64,000 nucleotides of DNA. Source: Bolinopsis microptera (lineage: Eukaryota > Ctenophora > Tentaculata > Lobata > Bolinopsidae). The DNA lies in the NCBI RefSeq assembly GCF_026151205.1, contig NC_087079.1, positions 8,236,635 to 8,300,634 on the forward strand. The letters run 5' to 3'. The position numbers and the translations under genes are program-made. Positions 27,710 to 51,045 of this stretch are shown in pieces. The stretch's first letter is position 1. Every line of letters begins with the position of its first letter. Under the pieces are notes generated by a model. The model was given only the letters and a program-made list of their open reading frames with translations. It ran no database searches and was not told where the DNA came from.

Positions 27710-28287
27710 TGCAAGATGTTGATCTATTCCTACAGTCGATTAGTATCGATATAATAAACAGAAGGACATGTTTTTTTCTTCAATACTCAAAAGACTGCCT
27801 AGTTGGAGTAGAGACTAGTTCCAGCCATGGCATGTTTCGAACTTTGATGCCAAAACATTAAAAGCAATAAATGAAGTATGAGAATCAAAATCATTAACAT
27901 TAGTTATAGGTGAAAAATTATAGTTTGTATTGTAGTTGGAAGTTAACAAATAAGAAACAAGCACAAATGAGGTAGGCATGCTTTTTTATGAACAAACTTT
28001 TTAGATGGTTTGTGAAATCGCGGTAAAATTAACAATTATTTTGCACTAAAACTAACCGTACTGTATATTTATCTATCTGAACTTAAATTCACCAAGATTA
28101 AATAGCAATGAAATTGTATCAAATTTTCTTCAAAGCAAAATTTAAACAGAATACTCATTACTCAAACTGTAATAAAAAGTTCATAAATCAAGTTTTTCTT
28201 AATAAAGCACTAGCACAGTTTCAGATAAACAACAGTCCAAATTATAACTTGTAAAGTTCCCGGAATGCTGACAAAGAATGCAACAGC
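27710..28287. other. Spacer between LINE 5' end and FIS1
   Basis: No ORF of note. It probably includes the LINE 5' UTR near 27710-27830 and the FIS1 3' UTR upstream of 28287. Neither limit is visible. Confidence 0.4.
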
Positions 28288-32901: not shown

Positions 32902-35900
32902 CTAGATTCTAGGTAAACTCCCGTCTCTAATTCCTTCCATAAGAAGAATGCAGTGAATCCAGCATTTTGATAATTCTGCCTGACCACTGTAGTCAAGATA
33001 CAGACCGTCCGCAGACAAATGTCTTTGTTTAAACCTGACGTTGTCAAAGAATTCGATATTGTCATAATCCTGTGAACATTTCAACATAAGTTTATTGAAA
33101 CTGCCGATCGTCTTGTTAATATTTAAATAGTTTGAATTGCTTCCTTTCCACTTTAGGCTGGTCAGTGTGGTCACAGACTCAAAAATAAATCGAGTTTTTG
33201 GAAACCGCACTATAAAGTTTCTCACATGATCATGTAACCTTCTAGCACGTAGTCTCTTTCTTATAATGTCATATATTCCAGCAGAAATGAGAACTATATC
33301 CGCCTTGTAGACTTCTTGAGAATATCTGTCGAGGTCTTCCAGATAAAGGACTGTATGCTTGTAAGCAATGATAGGCTCATAAAGCTGTGAGCAGTCAAAG
33401 CTATCATTTTTGCTGTCACATAGAATCAGAACTGTCTTACTCTTAGAAGTGGGAATGGAGCGAGAAGGAACGAGGTCAGTCTTGCGATGTCTATTGTGCG
33501 ACAAAGAATGGACAGGCGTTGATGATATAATATTGCTTTGCCGAACTTCAATAGTCTTAACATGTGGCTTCAGGATATCCAGTATCTCTTTGTACAGCTC
33601 ATTAGGTTCATCGTCAGAACATATCAATATGATAGAACAATAAACCCTGGCTCTGGACACCCCCACATAAATATGAGCAAGTATGTTCATGAGGGAATGC
33701 TGCAAACTGTTAGATGAATGAGCTGTGTCTTTAGATTGTGGAGAAGACAAATCGATGATGAGAACGGCACAGGGGAACTCTATCGAAACAGCATATTTAA
33801 CATAATCAACAAAATTTTCTGTTATGTCAAAGTTTTTCAGCCCTTCTGATTCAGCTGCCAGGTTCACTGTACTCCTGATGTCGTCAAACCATTGTTTGCT
33901 TGCAGCTGGCGTTAGGTCATCAGAAATATGGAGATATACTGTAATAACAGCAAGTTTGCAATCATCAAGAGCAGCAGCTTCATACGATCTATGTATCAGT
34001 TTCAACTCCTTTCTAACAATTTTAGTCATCCTATCTTCCGCCAGATTTGATTCCTTCCCAACGACACAATACAGTTTCGTGATGAATCCTTGGATATAGT
34101 GATTGAAACCTTGGCGTGGTAGAATCTGCTGTAATTTTACATGATCTACTCCACTCTTATCGAGAAATTTCTCTATTAAGTCCATTAGAAGGGTGGCTAT
34201 GCCATGGTGATTCCTGAGGTTTCCAGAGAGAGAGATGTCTCTATGTTTAACACAAAGGTCAATAACACGATCGAATGTTCCCTCAGCCTTGTGCAATAGA
34301 TATTTTCCCCAAAAGCCAAATTGAACGGTCTGCATCAAATCGCAACTGATCCACAGGGAACTAGGTTTCTGGTCGATGTCACAGACATTAGTTGATAACA
34401 TATCAAACAGGAAATCAGTGCTCGAAGATGGCAGCATCCATGTAGATGGCCTAGAATTGTAGCTCTCCGACATTTTTTGTGCGAAAGAGCTATGAAAGTC
34501 ATCACAGAATATGTGCCATCTTTTATCTTTAAGCATTCTTAGAAAACGTTCCTGCATTGAGACTACAAATTTCCTCCTTAAATCAAATTCAAAGTGGAAA
34601 TTAGGCCGCACGAATATTACTACCTTTTCTGTGCATCCCTCCATTTTGTCAGAAAGTAGAGTACTGAGATCATCATTATCTTTATGTTCACGAATATCAC
34701 CCAAAAGATCCTTAATGTCCACGGTTACCGAGTCATTAAATTGTTTGACAATCTTCATGAAATATTCGGCAGTATCTCTCCAAGGTAGCAACATAAGGAT
34801 CTGTTCATTTTCTCCCATGCACTCCAACAATTTTAGAATCCTAGCATACATCATTAAAGTCTTTCCAGAACCTGCAGATCCATTCACAAAAATATAAGGC
34901 TCCTCAAAAATAATGGGATTATCTTTTTGTGATTCTAAAAGTTTGTTTTGTTCTCGAGTAATATACTGTATACCATAGAGGTGGTCGGCAAAGATACTTT
35001 TATATGTCTTGGGTACGGGCACTATATTTTCAGCTCGATTTTTTGCATTGAGGTAAATTTCTTGGCATTTCAGTCTCTCATTGATGTCATTTATCGTGTA
35101 GCCTACTAGCTGACATTCATTAAAACTGTCTTTCAATCCACTGCAATTGTTTAGCCAAATACCTGTCAGTAGAACTTCGATATCCGATTCAGGTTGCCTG
35201 TTACCGAAGTCCGTTGCATACCTACGCAATCTATAACTCAAGTTATGGACATCTTTTTTCCACAAAATCGGAATGTCGCTGCGTTCAACAAAATCTTGTT
35301 TACTCTCAAGATCTTCTTCATTAACATGTGGAAATGCACAAAATTTCAAGTAGCAGGGTTTTTCATGGTTTTGGTTTGAAATGCCATTCAGGAATACTCC
35401 AAATCTTTCCAGTTGATTTGCTGCAGCATGGTATGCTTTCTTGTAGGGTACATATTTATTAGATTTCGGTCGTTTAACCTCGATACACATCACAACATTG
35501 TTCGGAAAAATTACTATAAAGTCATGTTCCCCCTCTGTTGCTTGTACTGCATCACCCACAAAAGCTTTCCATTGATCAATAGAATACTTGAAGCTATGTA
35601 GTACAGTGATTTGTTGATTACACATCTCAAGAGCTCGGTAAACATCACACTCCGCTTCGTAGTCAACACGTTTTGAATCATAATCATTTTTTCTGTTTGT
35701 TTTTAAGTCTTTTTCTGAGTAACAGTCCACTTGTTTCTGTTTTGGTGCTGGAGGTAGCATGAGTGGCTCAATATCTGTCAAAAGATTAACTTGGGAGCTG
35801 TACGACTCAAAGTATTGCTTACCAATATCAGCTAGAGTATGTAGAGTAGTTGAAGTAGAAGTCCCTGGAGATGAGGATGACATAGGTGTCTGTTTGTCGT

Positions 35901-35934
35901 CCATTCTGACATAGAAATCATGAGTAAGAAACAT
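32902..35934 (-). CDS. PD-(D/E)XK nuclease - SF1 helicase - SGNH-like fusion protein
   Basis: Intronless 1010-residue ORF. The N-terminal 80 residues are Ser/Thr-rich. Residues about 90-200 look like a NERD-type PD-(D/E)XK nuclease: YEAECDVYRAL (E94), GEHDFIVIF (D138), CIEVKRP (E152, K154). Residues about 325-780 are a UvrD-like SF1 ATPase: Walker A NGSAGSGKT (351-359), Walker B HIFCDDF (474-480), LSGNLRNHHGI (569-579), and motif VI IYVGVSRARV (755-764) with the arginine finger. Residues about 833-1000 resemble an SGNH/GDSL hydrolase: LILCDS (836-841, where GDS is usual), ISAGIYDI (883-890) and DGLYLDYSG (976-984), where the expected DxxH His is Tyr; this domain may be non-catalytic. An alternative start is M11. 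The layout resembles prokaryotic nuclease-helicase defence or repair proteins; its role here is unknown. It could be a mobile-element cargo gene. Confidence 0.8.
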   Translation of the reverse strand: MFLTHDFYVRMDDKQTPMSSSSPGTSTSTTLHTLADIGKQYFESYSSQVNLLTDIEPLMLPPAPKQKQVDCYSEKDLKTNRKNDYDSKRVDYEAECDVYRALEMCNQQITVLHSFKYSIDQWKAFVGDAVQATEGEHDFIVIFPNNVVMCIEVKRPKSNKYVPYKKAYHAAANQLERFGVFLNGISNQNHEKPCYLKFCAFPHVNEEDLESKQDFVERSDIPILWKKDVHNLSYRLRRYATDFGNRQPESDIEVLLTGIWLNNCSGLKDSFNECQLVGYTINDINERLKCQEIYLNAKNRAENIVPVPKTYKSIFADHLYGIQYITREQNKLLESQKDNPIIFEEPYIFVNGSAGSGKTLMMYARILKLLECMGENEQILMLLPWRDTAEYFMKIVKQFNDSVTVDIKDLLGDIREHKDNDDLSTLLSDKMEGCTEKVVIFVRPNFHFEFDLRRKFVVSMQERFLRMLKDKRWHIFCDDFHSSFAQKMSESYNSRPSTWMLPSSSTDFLFDMLSTNVCDIDQKPSSLWISCDLMQTVQFGFWGKYLLHKAEGTFDRVIDLCVKHRDISLSGNLRNHHGIATLLMDLIEKFLDKSGVDHVKLQQILPRQGFNHYIQGFITKLYCVVGKESNLAEDRMTKIVRKELKLIHRSYEAAALDDCKLAVITVYLHISDDLTPAASKQWFDDIRSTVNLAAESEGLKNFDITENFVDYVKYAVSIEFPCAVLIIDLSSPQSKDTAHSSNSLQHSLMNILAHIYVGVSRARVYCSIILICSDDEPNELYKEILDILKPHVKTIEVRQSNIISSTPVHSLSHNRHRKTDLVPSRSIPTSKSKTVLILCDSKNDSFDCSQLYEPIIAYKHTVLYLEDLDRYSQEVYKADIVLISAGIYDIIRKRLRARRLHDHVRNFIVRFPKTRFIFESVTTLTSLKWKGSNSNYLNINKTIGSFNKLMLKCSQDYDNIEFFDNVRFKQRHLSADGLYLDYSGQAELSKCWIHCILLMEGIRDGSLPRI

Positions 35935-38932
35935 TATACTATCTTTAAAAGAAATAAAGTATTATGACGATATACAATCCATAAATTGATATATTAAAAC
36001 ACCTTATTAATACACGGCCAAGGTGTCATCAATACTATTAAACAAGTTATTATCATGATCGCGCAGCTACAGATAAAAACATTGATCTAATCAACTTTTA
36101 TCTTAGAATTTTTGCTAATTGTGAAGTAACTAAGAAAGAAAAACTTATTTACCACAAAACAATCAATACATAATGTTATATTCATAAATAAATTCAAATT
36201 TCAATCTCAATCACATATACAGTACGCCACGCACACAGCCTGCACCTAATTCTTAGGTGCAGCTTTAGGCGCCACACACTATTTAATTGTTATCTTACAA
36301 TTACATGTCGCATTTCTTAATTAATAGAGCCAAAATTTCAGAAGCAAAATAATTTAAAAGATATTTCTGTTGTTCGCGCAGTACAGTCTGTGAGCACTGC
36401 GGTCTAATTAAAATAATAATTGCTCAGAGATTCTAAAAACTGCACGCTCATTATTTGTGATTGAGCGTGCGCCTCTGTGAACAGCAGTACCGCTCAAGCA
36501 TGAAGTACTGAGCAGTACTTTAATCAATTATATGTAGTAGCAGCAACATGTCGAACTTTAAAGTGGTGTCAAGACTCAAGAGACTAAAATAATTATTACT
36601 TTGATTGAAATAAATTTTCGTGCACATACAGAATGAATGGTTAATAATTTAATATATATGTAGACCAAGGTCTGTGCACGGGATGCTTCCTGGAAGAATC
36701 CAGTTCTTTTAGCGGGGCACCCTACCTAAAGCCAAATTGAGATATAATAATCATATTAAGTATATTATATTAAAAGTGGTAAATCGGGTGCTAGTAAAGC
36801 TCTTGCAGGCAACTGGCTCCTTTTGCCAACTGCTTTTGGTTTAAGCGCTGTCTCACATTTGGAACTGGCACTGGTATAATTGTAATATCCTACGAAGTCA
36901 GCATGCTATATTATTTTGCAAAACTCGTTTAATATCTTGACAATATTTAAAGTTTATGGTTTTAGGTTTAGGCGCGGCGCACCGCTTATATGTTATATAT
37001 ATATATTCAGCTTCTGTTTTCAGCGATGTGTTGCTACACACTGTATAGCATGTGGGTCAAGCGCGGTGCCGCGCCCAAGCAGCAAAAGAGTTATTTATTT
37101 TAAAATTTATTTTTGTATCTCAAAAAATGATGTAAAGTTTTTAATATGACGTAGAATTAAAGCTATTTCCGTACAGCCTAAGTGCTAAGCATGCTCGTTA
37201 GAAAAACTATGAACAATGAACATAACATGCTAGCTTTCTTTATTTTTGTAAGTCGCGTCGGCTGACATCTTGGGTTGTACTGGATGTAACAAGTTTATTA
37301 TCGGATGTCTACTTATATTTATTATGATATCATTATTCATTGTAATGGCAATAAAATTTAAATTTTGTTTTACTTAAAAAAAAATTTTGTTTTACTTATT
37401 CCTAGGGAAATAATCAGAAGTCGAATACCAATCAAATAATATGATATATAGGAGTAGTAACCATATTTACTATGCAAAATGCCCCAACCACATAGTGTAA
37501 ATTTATATAGAATTCAATTATTCAATTCGCGATTTTGACACCACTTGGAGGTCTTTTGGGCACTAACATTCTTGTTCCTGAGCCAATTTAAGGCCATTTA
37601 AGCATTTGAACCAGTCAAAAAAGTTTAAGTTGTACATCTTTTAAAGGTTTTGAGGAAATTTGTGTTAAAGTTGATGCCGTGGAGTCAGTAAAATGGTACG
37701 GGGATACAGAGGGCGTTCAGGAGTCCGTGGACGCCCTAAAATTATTATCTGGTAGCTGGTGCTTGAAAATAGAAATAGTGATTACTAATGGTATTCGGAA
37801 ATATCTAACCGCAATATAAAGCTCTCTATTCATTCAAACGTTCGAATGTAAGCGCATGCATGATCTTAGTGAAATTTTGTGTTGTAGGGTGTCCAATCCT
37901 CGTTTGGACAACTAAGACCCGCAGTTTTCACGCATAGTTAATTGTAAACGGTACAAAGCACATCAAGCGCATCCACTACAGGTAATTTATATGATTTGGT
38001 TGTCCAGAACACCTTGCAATCTGAACTGTTATGATACTGCGCGGCTGAGATCTTACACATGTGTGTCCTGTTTCACTCATGTTATACGTTTTTGTTTTTG
38101 TTTATTTGCTGTCGCCTGTGACACATTACATACATGAGGCACTGTGGCCTGTGGGTAACTGTAATGTACGTTGGAATAATTTAATTAATTAATTAACTCT
38201 CTGCTATGGTAATGGTATTGTCAATTGTATGCAGTCATCGGTGAATAGACATCGGCAGTTTTGGGGGGGGGGGGGGGGGGGGGGGGTGGTGGGAGCTTGG
38301 GGCGGCCCTTAAGCTAAGATAGATAGCATTCCAAAAATAAGCATATCACAATTACATTATTAATTTACATTATCAAAAGTAAATGTTAAACATTAACCCA
38401 AAATTGCTTCATTATTATTCGCTGACAAACCGGAGAATATGTGCTGTCCAAACAGTAGAATATGTACTGAGATCGGTTCACAAGATTGCCATGGGAGGGG
38501 GGAGCGAAAATGTGCGATGCACCTTAACTGACACATGACAATGTCAATTCATTGCAGCTCGGCGCGGCACAGTATAGTAGCGCATTTCGCCGATCTAGCG
38601 AGTACGTGGCACAATAACGCATCGCACTACAACGATAAATGAAAGGAAAACAATATCTAAATTTGATTGCCATTATGATAAATAATAATATTATAATAAA
38701 TGTAAATAGACATCCGATAAGTAAAAAAATGTAAGTAAAACACAATTCAAATTTAAGTAATAAACTAAAATTACTGTTAATCCAAGTTGAATTGCAATCA
38801 GCAGATGCGCGGCTTTTACGGTTATCTATAATATAATATGTATAATCTGTATTAATAAAGATCAAATCTCAAATTTGAATTCTTGATTCTTAAAATATGT
38901 GTATTTAAAAATAGTTTCTGTAATATAATTTT
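35935..38932. other. Noncoding region with inverted repeats
   Basis: No convincing ORF. Sequence at 37290-37366 (TATCGGATGTCTACTTATAT to CAATAAAATTTA) recurs inverted at about 38649-38735 (roughly 85% by eye), with weaker inverted similarity outside it around GTGCCGCGCC at 37068 and 38560. This suggests arms of a decayed TIR element of about 1.5-2 kb. A run of 24 G lies at 38263-38286. Confidence 0.5.
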
Positions 38933-39020: not shown

Positions 39021-40518
39021 TATAATTAATAATAGGTGTCATGAATTGGCACAGCATTTTTCGTTTCTGATTTTGATTAATTTGGTACCAAACGTTGTAT
39101 TATTACATTTAACTGAAAATTGTGTAGCACGATAACTTCGAACTGTATGTATGTGGGCCTTTTATGCATCGCAAAAATGTTTAATATGCCTATAACTCCT
39201 AAAATATTGAATATTTTTGGAATAGTTTTAACACAATTTTTTGTACCAAATTTTTAAATTTGTAATATTTGAAACATCAAATTAAAAAAATTGTTTTAAA
39301 TTTTACACAACCTTCCAAAAATTTTGAAGATAATTTTCTTTTAAATCGTAAAATATTAATTAAGTTTTATCTCACTGGGTTGATTCTGATGCCATAATAA
39401 TTAAGTGATAATAACTAAAACACAGGGGGCCCCCTAAGATTGCCCCCCCCCCCCGCACTGCGGGTAATTGCAGCAATTGTACCAACATTCATCTATTGGT
39501 ACAAGGTGGGTTTTGTATCTGCCCCTTACGATGTAGAGGCTGTGGCAGCTGATAGGAAACCTTGTCAAGCTCTTTTGAACATCAGGTATTTCGATTAAAA
39601 AAAGCGGGGACTCCCAACCCATGAAACTGAGACACCTCGCAGCAAGTAGACCAAAGTGGCTCTTGCTTGTGAAGGGTGTATTAACTACCCGCCGAGGCGG
39701 TGGGTTGGGAGTCCCTCCTGGGATCATTTCGTCCGTAAAATTTTACACATTATAAAAGCTACAATAAGTTATCTATAAAATTTACATAAACAAACTTAAG
39801 AGACCTCAAAGCTCGTCTTCTGAGGAATGAGATTGAAGGATACATCATCCAGTCCAAGGTGCTGGTATTTCGATTAATCGTAGATATGCCTCTGGTTCAA
39901 AATAATGTTTATTGAATTATAGAATTCTAGTTTTGGCGAGGAGGCCTTGGCAGATTTCCAGGTATTCACGAATTCTTCCCTTATATTATGACTGATTTGG
40001 GTGGAGAGCTTATATTTTAAGGAAGATGAGTGGAGAAGTTGTATTTGGTGAAAAGCTTGATGGTATAATAATCTCAAAAAACATATTAAAAGTATATTGT
40101 ATAATGTAAGGGAAAATTTAACAAAAAAGGCGCCAGTACCAAGAGATAAACCCTTTCCGCAATATAGGTCCTGGGTAAACCAGTAGAAATCCTGGGTAAA
40201 CCAGTAGAAATAAAGGATTATAAAGGAAAAGAAGAAGAAGAAAATGTTTAAGTGGACATCATCAGCAAATGACTTGGCTATCGGGTTTGGGGGTCTAACA
40301 CCTGTACCGATATTAACTTGCCAAGCCCCCCTAGCAATCACTCGTCACACAGGGATGTCAAAGTGCAAAGAAACTGCTGCTAACTGCTGCTAACTTCTAA
40401 AGAACAAAGAGGGAGTATCCTGGACCCCGAAATCCACCACTTTTCTGTACTTTCAGAGGTACCAATGTGGCAGGAAACCAGGGCTCATGCTGCCGCTGAG
40501 CTAAAGCTGAGCTAATAC
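39021..40518. other. No gene recognised
   Basis: Short minus-strand ORFs at 39434-39727 and 39874-40341 have no known motifs. GGTATTTCGATTAA occurs twice (about 39585 and 39866). The stretch 39420-39760, with GGGACTCCCAACCC and its near-complement GGGTTGGGAGTCCC, forms an imperfect inverted repeat. Likely retroelement debris. Confidence 0.35.
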
Positions 40519-40550
40519 TTTCAACACTACTATATAACAAATAATTTGAG
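40519..40550 (+). repeat. 32-bp direct repeat, left flank (target-site duplication)
   Basis: TTTCAACACTACTATATAAC plus 12 more bases ending TTTGAG is identical to 44135-44166. It brackets the PHD/RT element exactly, as expected of a target-site duplication. Confidence 0.85.
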
Positions 40551-40557
40551 TTCAGGG

Positions 40558-41187
40558 ATGGCAAACAAGGACGGGCAAACGGGGCACACTGATAGTGCCC
40601 CAGCCAGTACAGAACATGTAGAGACCAACGGACAAGCTGAAGAAGAAAGTACTAACGAACCTGTGTATAATCAGAAAGTATTAAACTCAACCAATTCTAT
40701 CAAACCTCAATCATCTTCTTCGAGATATGACTTTCGGCGCCACATCAGAACAGAGAAACCCTTGTTAAATAGACCTCAAGTCCTAGAAGTAAACATCAAT
40801 CATAAAACAAGAGTTGATAAGAAGAAAAAATGTAGACCAAATGAGAAGGAGAAGATAGATGACATATGTCCTATATGTAAAACCAGAGTTGAATGGCATG
40901 TAGATGCTTTGCAGTGTGAGGAGTGCGAGGTTTGGATTCATAAGGACTGCTTGTGTATGAGTGATGAAGAGTATGAGGATCATAAAACCAGTGAAGATGA
41001 TGAATGGTACTGTGACTGCTGCCAGTTGAATAGATCAAATAATTTGACGTGGGGTACCATTGCATGGTTGGGGAAGGGTGTATACGGTCAGAACTTACGG
41101 GGATATATGATGAAATTATTACGTGGTGTAGGAATTTGTTTATGGTGCCAAGGGGTAAGAGTGGGGAGAAGTTTATCAAAGAGTTGA
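40558..41187 (+). CDS. PHD-finger ORF1 of the RLE retrotransposon
   Basis: 209 residues from the ATG at 40558, the first in the element. Residues 1-100 are polar and basic. Residues about 104-155 form a C4HC3 PHD finger: CPICKTRVEW, QCEECEVWIHKDC, then EWYCDCCQ. PHD fingers usually read histone H3 tails, so chromatin-guided integration is a reasonable inference. After residue about 165 the frame overlaps the RT ORF, which lies in the -1 frame. The last 45 residues look like out-of-frame RT leader, so the natural protein is probably a single PHD-RT-RLE polyprotein. Confidence 0.75.
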   Translation: MANKDGQTGHTDSAPASTEHVETNGQAEEESTNEPVYNQKVLNSTNSIKPQSSSSRYDFRRHIRTEKPLLNRPQVLEVNINHKTRVDKKKKCRPNEKEKIDDICPICKTRVEWHVDALQCEECEVWIHKDCLCMSDEEYEDHKTSEDDEWYCDCCQLNRSNNLTWGTIAWLGKGVYGQNLRGYMMKLLRGVGICLWCQGVRVGRSLSKS

Positions 41188-43904
41188 CACGACTTTTGTA
41201 CCTGTTTGTGAATAAAACGGCCTGGGAGAGTCTTTCATTGCAGCTAGTCCATATATTTATCCCTATTATGTTACAGAAGCCTTCATCTAAGTCAAAAGCT
41301 AGAGACAATGCCAAGTACCTGGTAGATAGACTAGAAAAGTGGAAGGATGGCGACCTCAATTCCCTCATGGATGAGGCTCGTGTCATCCAGGAGAAGCTAA
41401 AACGAAAGAAAAAGTCTGAAGATCCATCGAAAATGAAATGCTTTAGTAGGTTAATGATGGTGGGTAAAGTATGTCAGGCCATGAAGCTCATCAACAACGA
41501 AAACTCAGTTGTTGGGGTACACACATTAAATAGAAAGATAAAGAGTCTATTACAAGAGAAACATCCTAAAGCTGAGACACCTCCAGCTGATATCCTTCTA
41601 CCTATAACAGCGCCTCAGGCACAGTCGGTGATATTTGCTGAAATATCGACAGAGCTAGTTGAGAAAGCGGCACTCCATGTTAAGGGCTCCGGTGGCCCAA
41701 CCCATTTGGATGCAGATGGGTGGAAGCACATCTTGTGCTCTAAAGCGTATGGGAAACTTCCTTTTCAACTCTGCGGTGCAATAGCTGAATTTGCAAAGCG
41801 TTTGTGTGTAGAGGATGTTAACCCAGACAGTCTGAATGAGTTTGTGGCCTGTAGACTGGTACCACTGAATAAGGGTGACGATAAGAGAGGTAATCCTGGT
41901 GTAAGGCCGGTGGGGGTAGGAGAGGTTCTTCGGCGTATTGTTGGCAAGGTGGTTATTGGGGTAATTAAGGATGATATACAAGAGGCTGCAGGACCTCTTC
42001 AGTCATGTGCTGGGCTAGAGTCAGGCATTGAGGCATCCATCAGAGCAGTTAAGAGGACATGGGAAGATCCTAAGACAGAGGCAGTGCTTCTTGTTGATGC
42101 TGATAATGCGTTTAACAGGCTTAATCGCAAAGCAGCTATTCACAACATTAGGCAGCTATGTCCTCCGTTTCACCAATACCTGAAAAACACCTATCAGAAA
42201 TCAGCCAAACTCATTGTCAACGACACATATTCGTGTGAGATAATTTACTCTGATGAAGGGGCAACACAAGGGGATGTGGCCGCAATGGCAGAGTATGCTA
42301 TCGGTATTCGTCCTCTTATCAACATCCTGGCCAGCGTGACAAAGTTAGGAGAATTGATGCAAGCGTGGTATGCAGATGACTCTGCAGCAGCAGGTACCCT
42401 GAAGAAACTCCGGCTGTGGTGGGATTTACTCAGTGTAAACGGTCCTAAGTTAGGCTACTTCCCTAAAGCAGTGAAGACTATTCTTATCTTAAAAGAAAAA
42501 TCGCTACTACCAGCAGCCACGTTTTTATTTGGAGAGACTGGTATAGAGATCACATGTGATGGGGAGCGTCATCTGGGAGCAGTGATAGGTGGAGAGGAGG
42601 CTAGAGAGACATATGTAAAAAAGAAAGTAGAGAAATGGGTGAAGGATGTAGAAGAGTTGTCAGATATTGCCCTCGATGAACCTCAGGCAGCCCTATCAGG
42701 GTATACCAAAGCCCTATGTCATCGGTGGACCTTTGTGATGCGTACCATCCAAGACACTAAAGACCTCTTCATCCCATTGGAGAAGTGTATAAGAGAAAAG
42801 TTCATCCCTGCAATTATTGGTAGGAATGTGTCTGATCTGCACAGGAGAATGTTTGCGCTACCTGTAAGATTAGGGGGGCTTGGTATTGTTAATCCAGTAG
42901 AGATCGCGGAGAAGGAATACCAGACGTCACTTAAGATAACTGAGGAGCTGGTTGACCTTATCTATCACCAGGAGACATCCCTGATGAAGTTGGATAAAAT
43001 TAAGATAAAGGGCAGAGTAGATTGCCTCAAGTTAGTTAAAGAATTACGCTTGAAGAAGGAGCTTGCTGAGATAATGAGTGAAGTGGATGAGAATACCAGG
43101 GAGTCATTGCAGCTGGTACAAGAGCATGGGTCAGGAGCTTGGCTAACATGTCTCCCCATTCAACAGCTAGGGTATGCTTACAGCAAGCAAGACTTCAGAG
43201 ATGCTGTTCATCTCCGGTATGGTTGGGACATCCCTAACACCCCAAGATTCTGCGATTGCGGAGCCAAGAATGATCACAATCATATCCTCAACTGTAAGAG
43301 AGGGGGGTATGTGAACTACCGTCATAATAACGTGAGAGACTCCGTTGCTGAATACCTTAGGCTGGTGACCAAGGATGTGAGGATTGAGCCCCTTTTAACA
43401 CCTATAGAATCGGCCAACTTCCAACAAAAGGGCAACAATGCTGATAAGGCTAGGCTTGATATATCAGCAAGAGGAGTGTGGAGCACATTTGAGAGGACTT
43501 TCTTTGATGTGCGCATTTTCAATCCTAAATCGCCTACATATCAAGGAAAGACCATGCCACAGCTCTACACTCTGCACGAGAATGAGAAAAAGAACCAGTA
43601 CATGAACCGAGTGCTACAATTGGAGAAAGGGTCATTCGTCCCCCTTGTATTTACCACTACAGGAGGAATGGCACCGGAGGCCAAGTGTTTCATAAGAAGA
43701 CTTGCTGTGTTGATAGCCACCAAGACAAAGGAGGACTACAGCCAGGTGATGTGTAACATCAGGACACGCCTGAGCATGGATATAATGAGGAGTGTGCTAG
43801 TAGCAGTTAGAGGTGTACGTGGAAAGGCAAAGAAGGCATGGACTGCCCCTATATCCAATGTCTCCTTCAACCTGATACCTGAGGAGAAGAGCTACGAGGG
43901 ATAG
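41049..43904 (+). CDS. Reverse transcriptase with C-terminal restriction-like endonuclease
   Basis: Open frame of 951 codons; the first true ATG is at 41064. Residues about 210-515 are the RT: GSGGPTHLDADGWKHIL, VACRLVPLNKG, GVRPVGVGEVLRR, motif A LLVDADNAFNRLN (D350), motif B GATQGDVAAMAEYAIG, motif C YADD (441-444) and RHLGAVIG. MFALPVRLGGLGI (601-613) is a conserved thumb-region block. The C-terminal half has a CCHC knuckle CDCGAKNDHNHILNC (735-749), YRHNN (757-761), ARLDIS (D804) and FFDVRIF (D820), matching the CCHC, R-H-N/D and PD..D layout of R2-type restriction-like endonucleases. The N-terminus joins the PHD ORF only through a frame change. Confidence 0.8.
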   Translation: MGYHCMVGEGCIRSELTGIYDEIITWCRNLFMVPRGKSGEKFIKELTRLLYLFVNKTAWESLSLQLVHIFIPIMLQKPSSKSKARDNAKYLVDRLEKWKDGDLNSLMDEARVIQEKLKRKKKSEDPSKMKCFSRLMMVGKVCQAMKLINNENSVVGVHTLNRKIKSLLQEKHPKAETPPADILLPITAPQAQSVIFAEISTELVEKAALHVKGSGGPTHLDADGWKHILCSKAYGKLPFQLCGAIAEFAKRLCVEDVNPDSLNEFVACRLVPLNKGDDKRGNPGVRPVGVGEVLRRIVGKVVIGVIKDDIQEAAGPLQSCAGLESGIEASIRAVKRTWEDPKTEAVLLVDADNAFNRLNRKAAIHNIRQLCPPFHQYLKNTYQKSAKLIVNDTYSCEIIYSDEGATQGDVAAMAEYAIGIRPLINILASVTKLGELMQAWYADDSAAAGTLKKLRLWWDLLSVNGPKLGYFPKAVKTILILKEKSLLPAATFLFGETGIEITCDGERHLGAVIGGEEARETYVKKKVEKWVKDVEELSDIALDEPQAALSGYTKALCHRWTFVMRTIQDTKDLFIPLEKCIREKFIPAIIGRNVSDLHRRMFALPVRLGGLGIVNPVEIAEKEYQTSLKITEELVDLIYHQETSLMKLDKIKIKGRVDCLKLVKELRLKKELAEIMSEVDENTRESLQLVQEHGSGAWLTCLPIQQLGYAYSKQDFRDAVHLRYGWDIPNTPRFCDCGAKNDHNHILNCKRGGYVNYRHNNVRDSVAEYLRLVTKDVRIEPLLTPIESANFQQKGNNADKARLDISARGVWSTFERTFFDVRIFNPKSPTYQGKTMPQLYTLHENEKKNQYMNRVLQLEKGSFVPLVFTTTGGMAPEAKCFIRRLAVLIATKTKEDYSQVMCNIRTRLSMDIMRSVLVAVRGVRGKAKKAWTAPISNVSFNLIPEEKSYEG

Positions 43905-44134: not shown

Positions 44135-44166
44135 TTTCAACACTACTATATAACAAATAATTTGAG
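44135..44166 (+). repeat. 32-bp direct repeat, right flank
   Basis: Identical to 40519-40550. The base before and the bases after the two copies differ, so the duplication is exactly 32 bp. Confidence 0.85.
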
Positions 44167-44757
44167 GATGTCCAATATGTCCATGGCTTGCTAAAGTCAA
44201 CTGCATCGGGGGTACTATGATGGTCCAGGGGGTGCTGAATCAGAAGACTGGCACGCTAACCTGTTAAGAAGTTAAGTAGTTGTAGTGAATAATGTTTCTG
44301 TTTGGAAATGTATAACTCCATTCACACCACAATCCACAATTGGACAATTGGACAACCCTGATTAATGTATAGATAGTGTTGAAAGAATTTTGAGCTTAAA
44401 TCTTGAACCAATACTTCTGATAACTTTTGGGGCTGTGCTCCAAGAACAGGCTGACATATATATGGCTTATGGATTATATTTAATGTATTCTGATTAAATG
44501 ATAGGGCTTGCCAGTCCAACCACCTCATATTTTTCATACTCACTCACTCTCTTGTCCCATGTGTCGTAGTCCGTCAGTCTGTTCAATTTTTCAATCTTTT
44601 GAATCATTTTGACTAATCCAGTTTAAATACACTTTCATTGTTTTCCACAACGGAACATTTGAAATTGCTATATGCTTTTCTTTCTTTCCAGGGAGTGTGC
44701 TGGTTGGACGTGAAGGTGCCCCCTGGATTGCCTGGTACCCCCAATTGCTTCTACGCC
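44167..44757 (+). other. Probable 5' UTR of the AlkB LINE and older flank
   Basis: No ATG-initiated ORF in the sense frame; the ORF1 frame is open from 44638 but begins without an ATG. TTTCTTTCCAG at about 44681-44691 resembles a splice acceptor. The 5' border of the LINE is not visible. Confidence 0.4.
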
Positions 44758-46716
44758 ATGAACGATACACCCACTGACTCTTCTCAATCTGTTCCGGACC
44801 AGACTTCAACTACTACGGTTCCGGATCAGACTACACCTGCACCCACTACTCCTACCATTATGGTGGAAATTGACGAAGTACTGAAGGATGTTGAAAATAT
44901 AATTCTTTCAGAATACCACGAATCAGAGGAAAATAAAGATTGTAGCAGCCTCCTTAGTTTCTTCTCAGGGTCTACCCCCCTTGACAACTTCCTGTTGACT
45001 CACTCGCAGAGCCTGCGCTCAGAGGTAGATATCATTAAGCTCAACATCTGTAACATTCTAAAACTTGATGTGAACAAATTTGCAATCATAACGCCATCTA
45101 TGGTTAAGAGCTGCCCATCTCTTAAAAAACTCACCTTAGCAGAGGGTCTACTATCCCTGCTTGGCCTTGCAGAAAATGTCTGTGCTGTAATAAGTGGCAA
45201 GAGATGTGACCACGAGGTTAAGTCCCCTTCTTATTTGTCAGCCCCCTCCAGTATTCCAATGGGTCATACTACTTCTAACGAAAGCTCTATACACAAGTCC
45301 TTAGAAGATATTCAAACATCCATTAAAAACTTGAAAGACAATGATAGCCACCTTAGGACTCTTGACTCCATAAACACCAAGCTTGCTGAGCTCAAAGTTG
45401 ATATTAACTGTTTCAAAAACAGCAGATCCTCAAACGTATCCACTCCTGACCTGCCCATGCCTCCTTTTATCATAGGGCCACCAGCAGCCTGTGAAACAGA
45501 CCATGAACAGCTCCTGCTAGATGCACAGAAGCCTTCAAGTGCAGACGACCCAAAGTCTAAGCACATCATGTCTTATTTACCAGAATTCATTGATACAACC
45601 TTGAACTCTCAGCTATTAGATTTCCTTGCTCAACAGAACGATGATTTTGTCAAGAACACAGAAAACGGGCATGGAGTTATAAGCTTTGGTGAACGATATG
45701 ATTACCCCGGGGCAAAAGCTGCTAAGCCCATATCAGAAGACCTGCCTGAAGTTCTTGCTGAACTTGCCTCAAGGATAAAGAAGCTTTGCCCTGAAACAGT
45801 TATTAATCAATGCCTGATCAACCGGTACAATGATGAGAGCAGTTTTCTCCCTAGACACTCGGATAACGAGAACTCGCTTGTGCATGATAGTTCGATTTTC
45901 ACTGTATCGTTAGGAAGCCAGTGTTCAGTTAAGTTCTCAATGAAAGGATCAGAAAGTGGGGAAGTCATTGAGACAATAGAGGGACGCAGTCTATATATCA
46001 TGAGCAAGCAGTCTCAGTTCCTCTGGGACCACAGAATAGATAAGAGCAGTGAAAGGAGGGACGTGAGATTCAGTATAACGTTCCGCTACGTGAGCAGCAG
46101 TAGCAATGCAACATTGATTATTGGTGACTCAAATACCCGGTTCCTCCGATTTGGTGCTGGAAAAGGGACATTCGGTCACAAACTGCCTGGAAAAAGACTT
46201 GAATGCTTCACAATAGATCAGTTAGACCCTGCCCTTTGTGTAGGATATAAGAATGTTGTAGTACACTGTGGTGTAAATAATATTAAGAGGGGAGGGTGTG
46301 ATGTTAAACACTGGGCTAATGAGCTGACGAAGAAGCTCACGAATATTTGTGAAATTTGTCCTTACTCTAAAGTTATAGTTTCACCAATCCTACCAACTAG
46401 GTCCTCCTGGCTAAATGAGAGAGCCATGGAGTTTAATAGTATATTGTTTGGGTACTGTAATACCAACGCTAGAATAGGAAATTTAGATTTTGATAGTTTT
46501 GTCGATGAGGAGGGTCTACTGAACAAACAGTTTTGTAGGTACAAGAAGCCGGATGACCCAATCCACCTGGGGTCAAGCGGTATCTTCAAACTCTCCCGGG
46601 CAATTGCCCATAAGATTCTAGGTAGCCCCGTTGATGGGAGGTTGTTCAGTGATGTTACCAAGGCCCAAAATAGATTTTCCCCACGTTCTCGTAGATCTGT
46701 AATCCAGTCATGGTAG
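44758..46716 (+). CDS. LINE ORF1: AlkB-like dioxygenase plus SGNH hydrolase
   Basis: 652 residues from the ATG at 44758. Residues 1-130 are low-complexity and helical; about 180-225 may form a coiled coil. Residues about 270-445 are an AlkB-type Fe(II)/2-oxoglutarate dioxygenase: NRYNDESSFLPRHSDNE gives the iron ligands H367 and D369, FLWDHRID gives H425, and RFSITFR (437-443) gives the RxxxxxR 2-oxoglutarate clamp. All key residues are intact. Residues about 450-625 are an SGNH esterase: ATLIIGDSNTR (S458), VHCGVNNI (504-509) and DDPIHLG (D600, H603). SGNH domains are known in ORF1 of some CR1/L2 elements; an AlkB domain there is unusual. AlkB enzymes demethylate nucleic acid, so acting on element RNA or cDNA is plausible. 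The stop overlaps the ORF2 start. Confidence 0.85.
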   Translation: MNDTPTDSSQSVPDQTSTTTVPDQTTPAPTTPTIMVEIDEVLKDVENIILSEYHESEENKDCSSLLSFFSGSTPLDNFLLTHSQSLRSEVDIIKLNICNILKLDVNKFAIITPSMVKSCPSLKKLTLAEGLLSLLGLAENVCAVISGKRCDHEVKSPSYLSAPSSIPMGHTTSNESSIHKSLEDIQTSIKNLKDNDSHLRTLDSINTKLAELKVDINCFKNSRSSNVSTPDLPMPPFIIGPPAACETDHEQLLLDAQKPSSADDPKSKHIMSYLPEFIDTTLNSQLLDFLAQQNDDFVKNTENGHGVISFGERYDYPGAKAAKPISEDLPEVLAELASRIKKLCPETVINQCLINRYNDESSFLPRHSDNENSLVHDSSIFTVSLGSQCSVKFSMKGSESGEVIETIEGRSLYIMSKQSQFLWDHRIDKSSERRDVRFSITFRYVSSSSNATLIIGDSNTRFLRFGAGKGTFGHKLPGKRLECFTIDQLDPALCVGYKNVVVHCGVNNIKRGGCDVKHWANELTKKLTNICEICPYSKVIVSPILPTRSSWLNERAMEFNSILFGYCNTNARIGNLDFDSFVDEEGLLNKQFCRYKKPDDPIHLGSSGIFKLSRAIAHKILGSPVDGRLFSDVTKAQNRFSPRSRRSVIQSW

Positions 46717-49700
46717 TCAAACTGATATGCGAAATCTGCTGCTGTTGCAATAGACCTGTGCGTGCTGGACATCCATTTTTGATTTGTCAGATGTGTGACA
46801 AAATAATGCACAAAAAATGTAAAACTGATGATAACATAACCAAATTTCGAGGTGCAACATATTGCAAAATATGCACTGATGCCAATGATATTGTACGGTA
46901 CAACCCTTTCTACCAAGCACCACACTTTGCAAACAATGGCCTCATTGATGATGAGCCAGTTAATTATATTGAATCTATCTACAATAGCTCAAAGATTCTT
47001 GAAAATTGCAAAACATTCTCCATAACTGAGTTGAATGCTACCGTCCTACCTAAAAATTCAGCTAAATATTTGTCCAAATTATTCCTAAATATTGATGGAA
47101 ATGCATCAAACTTTGACAACTTTGCAGTTGAGCTGTCTTGTATCGACCACAAATTCTCTGTTATCGGTCTTGCAGAAACAAATACTAATCCCGAAAATGG
47201 AACTCTGTATCAGCTTAACGGATACTCCTCCTGTTACCAATCACGTTATTTTTGTCAAAAGAAAAACCAGTTCAAGGGTAAAGGATCAGGAGTGTGTCTT
47301 TACCTGCACAACTCCTTTAACTTTAACAAAATCCCTGGCTTATCTCTCTGTAATGAACACATAGAATCACTGTTCGTATCCATCACTAGCTTGCAAGACC
47401 CAACTGTTGTAGGGGTTATATACCGTCCCCCAAACGCATCACTTGAACTGTTCAACGAAGCATATGAATGTATTCTCTCAAAACTGAATGGCAAAAAAGT
47501 ATATATTCTTGGTGATTTCAATATAAACATGTTGAAGGACCCATCTCCATCAGAGGACAAATTCCAAGAAATAATATTCAACAACGGCTTCATACCAACC
47601 ATATCAGTACCAACTCACCAAATGCCTGGCTGTTCCAGGACCTGTATTGACAATATCCATACCAATGTAGTAGATCAAACCCTTATTTCTGGTGTGATAT
47701 CTGACAAGATCTCCCACCATCACCCTATATTCACTCTTATTGAACTTTCCCCTGACTCTGTGCCAACACCTGATTCATCAGACAAAATTACTATACACTA
47801 CGACTGTAGTAATGCTAACTTAGAAAAGCTCTGTCTTGAAATAGAAAACGATGTAGATAGGTTCCACCACAGCTGTAACACATTTGATTCTTTCATGCAG
47901 TTATTTCAAGAAAAGATAGATTTGTCTTGCAAACTTCTAACTCCTAGAACCACTAAACGTAACAGCATAACCAACCCTTGGATTACCCAGGGCCTAATTA
48001 ATTCCATCGATAAGAAAGCTAGGTTGTATTTCGAATGGAAGAAGACTTGTACATTAAAACTACCTGACGGGGACCCAAACAAGCACATCTACTACAAGGA
48101 ATTCGACAAGTTTCTCAAAAGGTCAATAAATATGGCAAAGGCTATGTGCTATACTCAAAAATTCGAGAAGTACAGCATGAATTCGAAAAAGACTTGGGAA
48201 GTTATAAATGAACTCCGTGGTAAAAATTTGTCTAGATGTAAGGACGATTTTGTCATAGATGGCCAGAGAGTTACTTGCAGACGAATAATTGCTAACAAAT
48301 TTTGTGAATATTTTACATCTCTTGCAAGTAATCTCAATAAAAATGTATTGTCAAACAATAGTATTTCTCTGGAACCAGTAGAATCATTTGCTCAGTTCAT
48401 GTCTAATTCAGTATCTGACTCCATATACCTAGAAGAAACTAATGAAGACGAGATTGTCGAGGTCATCAGAGATTTTCAAAATGGCAAGGCGAGTGACATA
48501 CCTATAATCGTTGTAAAAAAATCGGCAAAGCTCATTGCTGGTACCTTGGCCAGGCTTTACAACACATGTATACAAAGTGGTACATTCCCAAGTATATTTA
48601 AAACTGGTAAAGTTATTCCTATTTACAAGAAAGACAATAAGGAATGCATTGAAAATTATCGGCCTGTATCAATATTACCTTTATTTGGAAAAATCTTTGA
48701 GAAGATCATTTACAAACGCCTTTATAATTTCTTCACATCTAAAGGTGTACTAACAGACTCACAGTTTGGATTTAGAAAAGGCCATTCTACCACTCATGCT
48801 CTACACAAATCTATAGACTCCGTTACAAAGTCTCTGGCTAGCAATAAACATGTATTGGGCATATTCATTGACTTGAGCAAAGCCTTTGACACCCTTGATC
48901 ACAATATTCTTCTAAGCAAGTTAAATTCCTACGGTATTAGGGGTTCAGCACTTACCTTACTTAAAAGCTATTTGACTAACAGAAAGCAGTATGTTATGTA
49001 TAACGATGTACCATCAGTAACAATGGACGTGAAATTTGGAGTACCACAAGGGTCAATTCTTGGGCCACTACTCTTCCTACTGTATATGAACGATATAGTA
49101 AACTGTTTTTCAGACAGTGAGGTGAAATTTGTACTTTATGCTGATGACACTAATATCTTCATATCAGGACCATCTAGAGAAGCAACATATAAAAAAGCCA
49201 ACTTAGTACTTAAACATGTCTCGATTTACATGAAATGTAATCTACTTCATATCAACATGTCCAAATGCTGCTACATACATTTTAAACCTGCCTCTGAATA
49301 TGATGACACCTGTGCGCGGACTAGACCATTTGCTAACCTGCTAGATGAATCTAGATCAATATTCATCGATGGTAAGGTTATCACTAAAGTCAAGGATACC
49401 AAATTCTTAGGTGTTGTTATAGATAGTAAGCTAAACTGGATTGCCCACATGCACTACATCCGTAAAAAGCTGCGGACCATGACTGGTGCAATCTGTAGAA
49501 TCCGGCACTCTATACCTGCTGAACTATACTTGAAAATATATAATGCTCTTTTTGAATCACATCTCAGTTATGGTATAAGTGTTTGGGGTGTTGTCATCAA
49601 GGAACGGTCCAATGACAGTCTTTTTATCACTCAGAAGCACTGTATAAGGATCCTTTTTGGTGATCTCGACTCATATCTAGATAAACAATCAACATGTGCA

Positions 49701-50114
49701 AGAACTAGACCATATGGTATGCAAAGATTAGGCCATAAACATTTTGAAAAGGAGCATACAAAACCCATTTTTAATAGACTAAAAATTCTTACAGTTCAAA
49801 ACTTGTTCAAGTACCATTGCATTTCAGAATTCTCTAAGATTATCAAGTACCACTGCCCATACTCCCTTTATGAGGCCATCAACATTTCAAACCGTACAAC
49901 GAGTTTAACGGTTATTCTTCTTAATAAATCAAATACTTTTTTGTTCACTGCAGCCAAGCTTTGGAACACTGTTCATAAAAAAATTCTAACCTCAAGCAAT
50001 TGCCTAGAAACTTCCATTAACTTGATAAAATTGAGAACCAAGGCACTATTATTACAAGTACAGGCTGCTGATTTAAAAGATACTTGGAATCCAAACAATT
50101 TTAAATTGCAGTAA
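46710..50114 (+). CDS. LINE ORF2: zinc finger, APE endonuclease, reverse transcriptase
   Basis: 1134 residues, uninterrupted. The N-terminal 55 residues form a PHD-like Cys/His cluster (ICEICCCCNRP, ICQMCDKIMHKKC, YCKIC). Residues about 120-345 are an APE endonuclease: GLAETNTN (E156), VIYRPPN, LGDFNIN (D269, N271), SDKISHHHPIF (catalytic His region). Residues about 630-900 are a CR1/L2/jockey-group RT: NYRPVSILPLFGKIFEK, FGFRKGHSTTHAL, FIDLSKAFDTLDHN (D721), GVPQGSILGPLLFLLYMND, YADD (810-813). The C-terminal half has HLSYGISVWG and LFTAAKLWN. A CARTRP motif occurs twice. Start at 46710 lies inside the ORF1 stop (ATGGTAG), suggesting reinitiation. Both ORFs are intact, so the copy may be young. 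Confidence 0.92.
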   Translation: MVVKLICEICCCCNRPVRAGHPFLICQMCDKIMHKKCKTDDNITKFRGATYCKICTDANDIVRYNPFYQAPHFANNGLIDDEPVNYIESIYNSSKILENCKTFSITELNATVLPKNSAKYLSKLFLNIDGNASNFDNFAVELSCIDHKFSVIGLAETNTNPENGTLYQLNGYSSCYQSRYFCQKKNQFKGKGSGVCLYLHNSFNFNKIPGLSLCNEHIESLFVSITSLQDPTVVGVIYRPPNASLELFNEAYECILSKLNGKKVYILGDFNINMLKDPSPSEDKFQEIIFNNGFIPTISVPTHQMPGCSRTCIDNIHTNVVDQTLISGVISDKISHHHPIFTLIELSPDSVPTPDSSDKITIHYDCSNANLEKLCLEIENDVDRFHHSCNTFDSFMQLFQEKIDLSCKLLTPRTTKRNSITNPWITQGLINSIDKKARLYFEWKKTCTLKLPDGDPNKHIYYKEFDKFLKRSINMAKAMCYTQKFEKYSMNSKKTWEVINELRGKNLSRCKDDFVIDGQRVTCRRIIANKFCEYFTSLASNLNKNVLSNNSISLEPVESFAQFMSNSVSDSIYLEETNEDEIVEVIRDFQNGKASDIPIIVVKKSAKLIAGTLARLYNTCIQSGTFPSIFKTGKVIPIYKKDNKECIENYRPVSILPLFGKIFEKIIYKRLYNFFTSKGVLTDSQFGFRKGHSTTHALHKSIDSVTKSLASNKHVLGIFIDLSKAFDTLDHNILLSKLNSYGIRGSALTLLKSYLTNRKQYVMYNDVPSVTMDVKFGVPQGSILGPLLFLLYMNDIVNCFSDSEVKFVLYADDTNIFISGPSREATYKKANLVLKHVSIYMKCNLLHINMSKCCYIHFKPASEYDDTCARTRPFANLLDESRSIFIDGKVITKVKDTKFLGVVIDSKLNWIAHMHYIRKKLRTMTGAICRIRHSIPAELYLKIYNALFESHLSYGISVWGVVIKERSNDSLFITQKHCIRILFGDLDSYLDKQSTCARTRPYGMQRLGHKHFEKEHTKPIFNRLKILTVQNLFKYHCISEFSKIIKYHCPYSLYEAINISNRTTSLTVILLNKSNTFLFTAAKLWNTVHKKILTSSNCLETSINLIKLRTKALLLQVQAADLKDTWNPNNFKLQ

Positions 50115-51045
50115 TCTATTCTAATCGCAGCAGCACACACTTAACACACTTAATATTACTATCATGATTGTATTATAGACTGAAAAGCTCTCAGATCAAT
50201 TTTGGGCGTTTTTAACCACTTGTTGTAATGTTTTTAATTATTTAATATCTTAACTTAACTAAATTTTTATTCAGATCGAATTAACAAATAATATTTGATA
50301 ATTTATTCGATAGTTTAGTCTGATATTGATATTGACTATATTGATATTGTTATTATTGAATGAAGTTAACTCCAGACGTACATAATATTACTTCTTTTAA
50401 CAAAGGGACTTGGAGTATAAACGACCAAGTTAGCATACATTTTCAACCAACCAAGAATTCTGGAGGCAAAGGTGGGTGCGTAAACTTTATGGTCTGTACT
50501 CTCCGATCCTGTATCACCCAGGATTCTTTTCGACGTTTTTGGTAAAAGGTATATACCTTCTAGTCAATCTCTTGCTACTCCAAGTCCCCCAAGATTTCTA
50601 AACTAAAGTTCGTCCTAGTTATATTATATTATATAAAATATATTTTTTGTTTGCTGTAACTGATACTAAATAAAATTGTTGTTTTCCTGAAATTGTTGTT
50701 TTCCTGATTATGTATGTTATGTTGAGCATTCTCAACCAACAAATGTGGGAACTCCCACGAAAGACCAAAACAGATCTAAAGAGACACTTAACAACATTGG
50801 AAAATAGACTTCAATTTGTTTATATAATTTATAAAGCGTATATTATTGCCCACGTTAAGGGGCCTGTTAATAATTTATTAAATTATTAGCTATTTTAGAT
50901 TTAATAATAATAATAACTGCTGCTGACTGCTGCTAACTGCTGCTGTTGCGTGCGCCACTAGCAGCAGTTAGCAGCAGTATATGACATGAATATTGAATAT
51001 TATTAAGCTTACATTGTTTATAGGGCTTTATATTTATAATTAATA
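50115..51045. other. LINE 3' UTR and flank
   Basis: AT-rich sequence after the ORF2 stop; no poly(A) or clear LINE terminus is visible. Contains a GCTGCTAACTGCTG-type repeat at about 50920-50975 that also forms an inverted repeat (GCAGCAGTTAGCAGCAG). Confidence 0.4.

Follow-up and report, generated by a model that had tools for sequence, protein, structure and literature searches.

Long interspersed nuclear elements (LINEs) of the CR1 and L2 groups with a Type IV, ZfL2-1-like first open reading frame (ORF1) have two open reading frames. ORF1 has a helical N-terminus and an SGNH-type esterase, and ORF2 encodes an endonuclease and a reverse transcriptase (RT). In the accessible text of a 2013 account, esterase ORF1 proteins are called unique among ORF1 proteins in having an enzymatic function (PMC3905857). 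A LINE that resembles this kind is present in the ctenophore Bolinopsis microptera, in a stretch of 64,000 nucleotides (nt) termed the window (contig NC_087079.1, positions 8,236,635–8,300,634, forward strand). It displays the same layout, with a helical N-terminus and an SGNH domain homologous to the solved ZfL2-1 ORF1 esterase 4c1b, however a second enzyme domain, an AlkB-type 2-oxoglutarate (2OG) and Fe(II) dioxygenase, precedes the esterase. What is new is the ORF1 architecture, AlkB plus SGNH, in a known kind of LINE. An AlkB type is absent from the ORF1 table of PMC4120745, and no mention of AlkB was found in the accessible parts of PMC4120745 or PMC3905857. No AlkB domain in a LINE ORF1 was found in titles and abstract openings of the literature searched, which included few subscription papers and did not extend to Repbase, and prior notice is possible.

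The closest known case of a retrotransposon with AlkB is a set of Ty3/Gypsy elements of Phalaenopsis orchids, which also encode an AlkB-family demethylase (PMC9289625, in part). These are long terminal repeat (LTR) elements of one plant lineage and have a separate ORF for an ALKBH5-like eraser of N6-methyladenosine (m6A). The Bolinopsis element is non-LTR, its AlkB domain is fused to SGNH in ORF1 and appears by sequence to be nearest to ALKBH2 and ALKBH3, and its family is large and divergent. The initial annotation of this DNA was right that the AlkB domain is intact and, as far as the literature searched shows, in naming no LINE ORF1 precedent, but it missed the orchid elements. Bdelloid rotifer LTR elements have captured a GDSL esterase, which in one Adineta species is joined to a DEDDy exonuclease in a single ORF. 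In the rotifer elements, however, the esterase is in ORF3, its partner is not AlkB, and the rotifer esterases do not cluster with those of LINEs (PMC5408684, in part). Plant RNA viruses offer another RNA-based replicator with an AlkB domain whose history is unlike that of its neighboring domains; there it is part of replicase polyproteins, there is no DNA stage, and the non-viral best hits are mostly bacterial (PMC544882, in part).

The AlkB and SGNH domains of ORF1

The ORF1 sequence matches the Pfam family 2OG-FeII_Oxy_2 (PF13532) at amino acid (aa) positions 311–443 (E = 2.2e-16; score 61.1 bits, cut-off 31.2). The iron ligands (HxD at 367–369, i.e. H367 and D369, and H425) and the 2OG site (R437 and R443 of the RxxxxxR motif) are all present, and residues 262–447 are predicted to have the AlkB fold. 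The SGNH motifs are GDS at 456–458, GVNN at 505–508 and DPIH at 600–603. A single-sequence Pfam search matches SGNH weakly, below cut-off (E = 0.0028); a profile of 88 ORF1 sequences matches 4c1b with E = 6.5e-6. Both active sites had been read from the letters alone in the initial annotation and are borne out, as is an open ORF2, where the RT match is strong and the endonuclease matches of the window copy (PF03372 and PF14529) are below cut-offs (E = 0.003). Many ORF2 homologues among the matches listed carry PF03372 or PF14529. The N-terminal helical domain has no Pfam match above cut-off, and the long helices that follow are a probable coiled coil in the predicted structure.

A search of the B. 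microptera genome (264.65 Mb, 232 contigs) with ORF1 gave 919 candidate places, of which 68 were scored; this number counts the window copy and includes at least three second fragments of broken copies. ORF1 is without internal stop in 60 of the 68. At least 630 of its 652 residues are spanned by 27, and 25 of these have no stop. The copies form main identity tiers of 98–100, 86, 78–80 and 52%. Both ORFs are open in the window copy, L002, L003, L018 and L036; the ORF2 frame is broken in L007 and L012. L002 and L003 are 99.6–99.8% identical to the window copy over aligned lengths, thus the family is young. Thirty other copies were read (the 29 best-scoring of the 68 matches besides the window's own, and L036) and 29 have the AlkB H, D, H, R and R intact; the exception, L004, has a premature stop.

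The domain is also retained in homologues elsewhere. Two protein searches gave 254 (at E ≤ 1e-3) and 207 ORF1 homologues, and the 120 matches listed for each yield the 198 distinct sequences on which the conservation counts rest, at least two of them from Mnemiopsis leidyi. With gaps counted as misses and deviant sequences included in the totals, each AlkB ligand residue is kept in 194–197 of the 198 listed, and the SGNH triad in 197 (S), 186 (D) and 190 (H). In one homologue, P0127, a single frame contains a PHD-like finger (by eye), part of an AlkB domain and a fragment of an RT; it would read as an internal deletion of a LINE with an AlkB ORF1. When the ORF1 list (141 of the 198 rows, sources under ~3 kb being partly omitted) is compared with all 120 listed ORF2 rows, 17 pairs come from source sequences of equal size (14 sizes, four of the pairs sharing a single one). 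The same count at 120 shifted offsets averages 2.1 and does not exceed 7. This indirectly suggests that AlkB ORF1s accompany this class of ORF2 elsewhere too.

The ratio of nonsynonymous to synonymous divergence (dN/dS) was obtained by a simple counting method for the window copy against L007, L012 and L018. For AlkB it is 0.157 (0.07–0.34), 0.114 (0.06–0.19) and 0.074 (0.05–0.15), respectively, and for SGNH 0.142, 0.117 and 0.115. The endonuclease part gives 0.335, 0.140 and 0.148, so that in L007 early ORF2 is above AlkB; RT values are 0.065 (L012) and 0.042 (L018). The AlkB domain is under purifying selection, with a constraint similar to that of the esterase. The initial annotation held that confinement of AlkB to this single copy, or neutral decay of HxD, H and R in related copies, would speak against its proposal. 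Neither is the case: there are 68 scored matches, and decay was looked for and not seen (AlkB dN/dS 0.07–0.16). The AlkB domain thus appears from its residues to be a catalytically intact and family-wide part of ORF1.

Exchange of blocks between lineages

Divergence is uneven along the element. Between the window copy and L012 the identity is 96% in the 5′ untranslated region (5′UTR), 77% in the N-terminal part of ORF1, 74% in AlkB, 90% in SGNH and 95% in early ORF2. The corresponding values for L018 are 95, 84, 73, 80 and 88%. AlkB can be 73% identical where the 5′UTR and early ORF2 reach 95%, and such shuffled modules are a further new feature. In L007 the lowest value is that of the N-terminal part (85%), and AlkB is higher (90%). 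AlkB dS is 1.5 for L012 and 2.3 for L018; the N-terminal part (0.98 and 0.62), SGNH (0.38 and 0.95) and the endonuclease (0.16 and 0.48) are all below this. The high dS and low dN/dS of AlkB indicate that its low identity is due to old divergence and not to relaxed constraint, and the uneven divergence along the element indicates that blocks have been exchanged between lineages.

A recent stage of this process is seen in L019 and L021. Their ORF1s, of a sister tier, are 98–99% identical to that of L024, whereas their early ORF2 is close to that of L036, an element of the 52% tier (97–98% identity), and far from that of L024 (66%). Block exchange thus occurs inside ORF1 and ORF2 lineages as well as across them. 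Reticulate, modular evolution of ORF1 is known for CR1 and L2 (PMC4120745, in part).

Element boundaries and neighboring sequences

The coordinates of the features are in Table 1. Among 29 other genome loci aligned to the window, 19 have exactly the 5′ start of the window copy and L027 and L028 start within six bases of it; a twentieth row with this start, L011, is the neighboring copy L019 over again and is not counted. The remaining eight start downstream, the pattern of 5′-truncated LINE copies. Two of the eight, L002 (starting at 44586) and L003 (starting at 44748), still retain the full ORF1.

The 3′ end is placed after the second of two 17-nt repeats, the point from which the window copy, L002 and L003 no longer share flanking sequence; locus alignments extend slightly farther, to 50712–50713. 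The repeats adjoin AATAAA and are also present in L002 and L003. The exact 17-nt motif was searched for in L007, L012, L018 and L036 and not found, and no target-site duplication is obvious by eye around the window copy. CR1/L2-type LINEs typically end in short tandem repeats without poly(A). Together with the ORF1 esterase and the ORF2 finger, the 3′ repeat is the basis for describing this LINE as CR1/L2-like. The finger is PHD-like by eye; a Pfam scan of the window-copy ORF2 gives no PHD match for it, and ORF2 homologues P0281 and P0293 carry PF00628.

Table 1. Features of the AlkB-carrying LINE and location of hybrid copies (window positions unless a contig is named)
Feature	Position	Strand	Basis or remark
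Whole LINE element, ~6.57 kb	44135..50706	+	common 5′ start; flank divergence at 3′ end
5′UTR	44135..44757	+	92–96% identity to 5′UTR of L007, L012, L018, L019, L024
ORF1, 652 aa	44758..46716	+	open, ATG 44758 to stop at 46716
ORF1 N-terminal helical domain, aa 74–146	44977..45195	+	predicted structure, mostly confident
ORF1 long helices, aa 175–222	45280..45423	+	predicted structure
AlkB 2OG-Fe(II) dioxygenase domain, aa 262–447	45541..46098	+	Pfam, ligand residues, predicted fold
SGNH/GDSL esterase domain, aa 452–621	46111..46620	+	S458, N507, D600, H603
ORF2, 1134 aa	46710..50114	+	open; ATG overlaps ORF1 end by 7 nt
Cys/His-rich finger at ORF2 N-terminus, PHD-like by eye	46737..46889	+	
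APE-type endonuclease region	47151..47708	+	PF03372 and PF14529, GDFN motif
RT domain (YADD)	48627..49421	+	RVT_1 E = 6.9e-36
3′ end: two tandem copies of AAATTGTTGTTTTCCTG (17-nt units), without poly(A)	50673..50706	+	
Hybrid copies L019, L021	C19:60073-62016 and C6:20489235-20491178		ORF1 and early-ORF2 identities from different tiers

The heptapeptide TCARTRP is found twice in the C-terminal half of ORF2 (window 49311 and 49695). Both occurrences are conserved in L002, L003 and L018, in the last with synonymous codon changes; the heptapeptide was looked for in L036 and not found. A second LINE-like stretch (window 40516–43904) is located directly upstream, with an ORF at 40516–41184 that matches PHD below cut-off (E = 1.3e-4), followed by a 951-aa ORF whose RVT_1 match is likewise under its cut-off (E = 4.4e-6). 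From the stop codon of the latter to the start of the AlkB element is ~230 bp. Elsewhere in the window, an ORF of 977 aa is open on the minus strand at 24806–27739; it encodes endonuclease and RT domains and matches DUF6451 weakly. A 1019-aa ORF at 32902–35961, also on the minus strand, has no matches other than weak ones, under their cut-offs, to helicase families (DEAD, ResIII and UvrD) and is perhaps another mobile element.

Possible function of the AlkB domain

A profile of the AlkB domain alone matches ALKBH2 (1.7e-14), ALKBH3 (1.1e-11), ALKBH8 (1.5e-10) and E. coli AlkB (4e-6); at E ≤ 10 neither ALKBH5 nor FTO is among the matches. By fold, the domain ranks with ALKBH3 and ALKBH2, and ALKBH5 is lower. 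It shares fold and active site with these two cellular proteins, however the structural identity is 21–26% and here the domain is fused to LINE ORF1 parts. Residues that align with the YxF and DE motifs of ALKBH2 are kept (Y314, Y316 and an N/D370-E371 pair). In ALKBH2 these residues line the lesion pocket. The ALKBH2/3 likeness and the kept pocket residues point, without proof, to methyl lesions on the Watson-Crick face rather than m6A as the substrate. Repair of lesions of the 1-methyladenosine (m1A) and 3-methylcytidine (m3C) type, which block RT, accordingly looks likelier on grounds of sequence and fold than erasure of regulatory m6A.

That both enzyme domains are kept family-wide suggests that the element frees its own RNA or DNA of methyl damage or marks while it is copied. 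Stripping of methyl marks from the RNA or cDNA was proposed in the initial annotation, and we infer the same. In the explanation favored here, the ORF1 protein would coat and package the element's own RNA, and the AlkB domain would oxidatively remove RT-stalling methyl groups of the m1A and m3C type in cis. In target-primed reverse transcription, the ORF2 protein would then have a full-length template to copy. The membrane or ribonucleoprotein (RNP) job proposed for ZfL2-1 may fall to the esterase. Because methylated bases impede reverse transcription and m1A and m3C are removed by AlkB, laboratories use AlkB pretreatment (PMC8053708, in part). We put the probability of this explanation, packaging, template repair in cis and an esterase role in a young CR1/L2-like LINE, at roughly 45%.

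Several observations weigh against it. RT is more constrained (0.042–0.065) than AlkB; the AlkB dS approaches saturation in the comparisons with L012 and L018, and against L036 it is saturated and gives no estimate; the dN/dS values come from simple counting on lineages that are mosaic. The whole-ORF1 profile weakly matches a DNA N6-methyladenine (6mA) demethylase, C. elegans NMAD-1 (E = 4e-4), and other substrates are possible. The trees give no decision between one AlkB capture and several. In a tree that includes four reference sequences, 45 LINE AlkB domains stand apart from these with 86% bootstrap; when the partial ALKBH8 is left out the split is lost and ALKBH2/3 fall inside the LINE domains at 15%. 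Resolution is poor in this set of 45 domains, which omits P0158, P0127 and P0159 and includes no ALKBH5. 

P0186 as a lone query gave no solved relative at E ≤ 0.01. As to a viral source of the domain, a scan of viral contigs with the AlkB profile gave 46 pattern matches and no confirmed relative, and has little bearing on RNA viruses.

The same NMAD-1 match would fit an escape from epitranscriptomic control, in which AlkB erases regulatory m6A, or DNA 6mA, and host readers neither silence nor degrade the element; the orchid Gypsy elements have been proposed to act in this way. The orchid Gypsy protein demethylates m6A in vitro (PMC9289625, in part) and L1 is affected by the host m6A machinery (PMC7873242, in part). 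In view of the ALKBH2/3 likeness described above, this explanation is unlikely. About equally doubtful is a role in DNA repair at integration, with single-stranded cDNA or the nicked target being protected or repaired (3-methylcytosine, 3meC, and 1-methyladenine, 1meA). DNA methyltransferases are linked to 3meC, which could be such a lesion. The nearest solved relatives, ALKBH2 and ALKBH3, are mostly solved with DNA, and low-level 5-methylcytosine is found in Mnemiopsis DNA (PMC12221973, in part). However, packaging of RNA is the presumed function of known LINE ORF1 proteins (PMC3905857, in part), which makes RNA the likelier first substrate.

Still more improbable is a role of the AlkB fold chiefly in binding nucleic acid within the RNP, with catalysis incidental. 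A Pfam scan of ORF1 gives no RNA-binding domain above cut-off (one model, E = 0.41), and the catalytic-dead orchid protein still binds RNA (PMC9289625, in part), but binding alone would not need Fe and 2OG ligands that are almost invariant over the 198 divergent homologues listed. The view that AlkB is a passenger, a host gene caught by one copy and drifting, has next to no chance of being correct, and single-copy capture with neutral decay is ruled out by the 68 genome matches in four main tiers, the low AlkB dN/dS, the hundreds of homologues and the ligands kept in 194–197 of 198.

Beyond template repair in this one element, there may be a branch of animal LINEs with its own template-repair enzyme, in which the AlkB block is a cassette exchanged between lineages, perhaps through alternating substrate preferences; this broader proposal is tentative and we consider it the less probable of the two. 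A second conserved ORF1 enzyme, one able to reverse methylation of nucleic acids, would tie retrotransposition to RNA and DNA alkylation chemistry in animals and would give a testable reason for full-length copies by such LINEs. It would also represent a natural pairing of a demethylase with a reverse transcriptase, like AlkB pretreatment in RNA sequencing.
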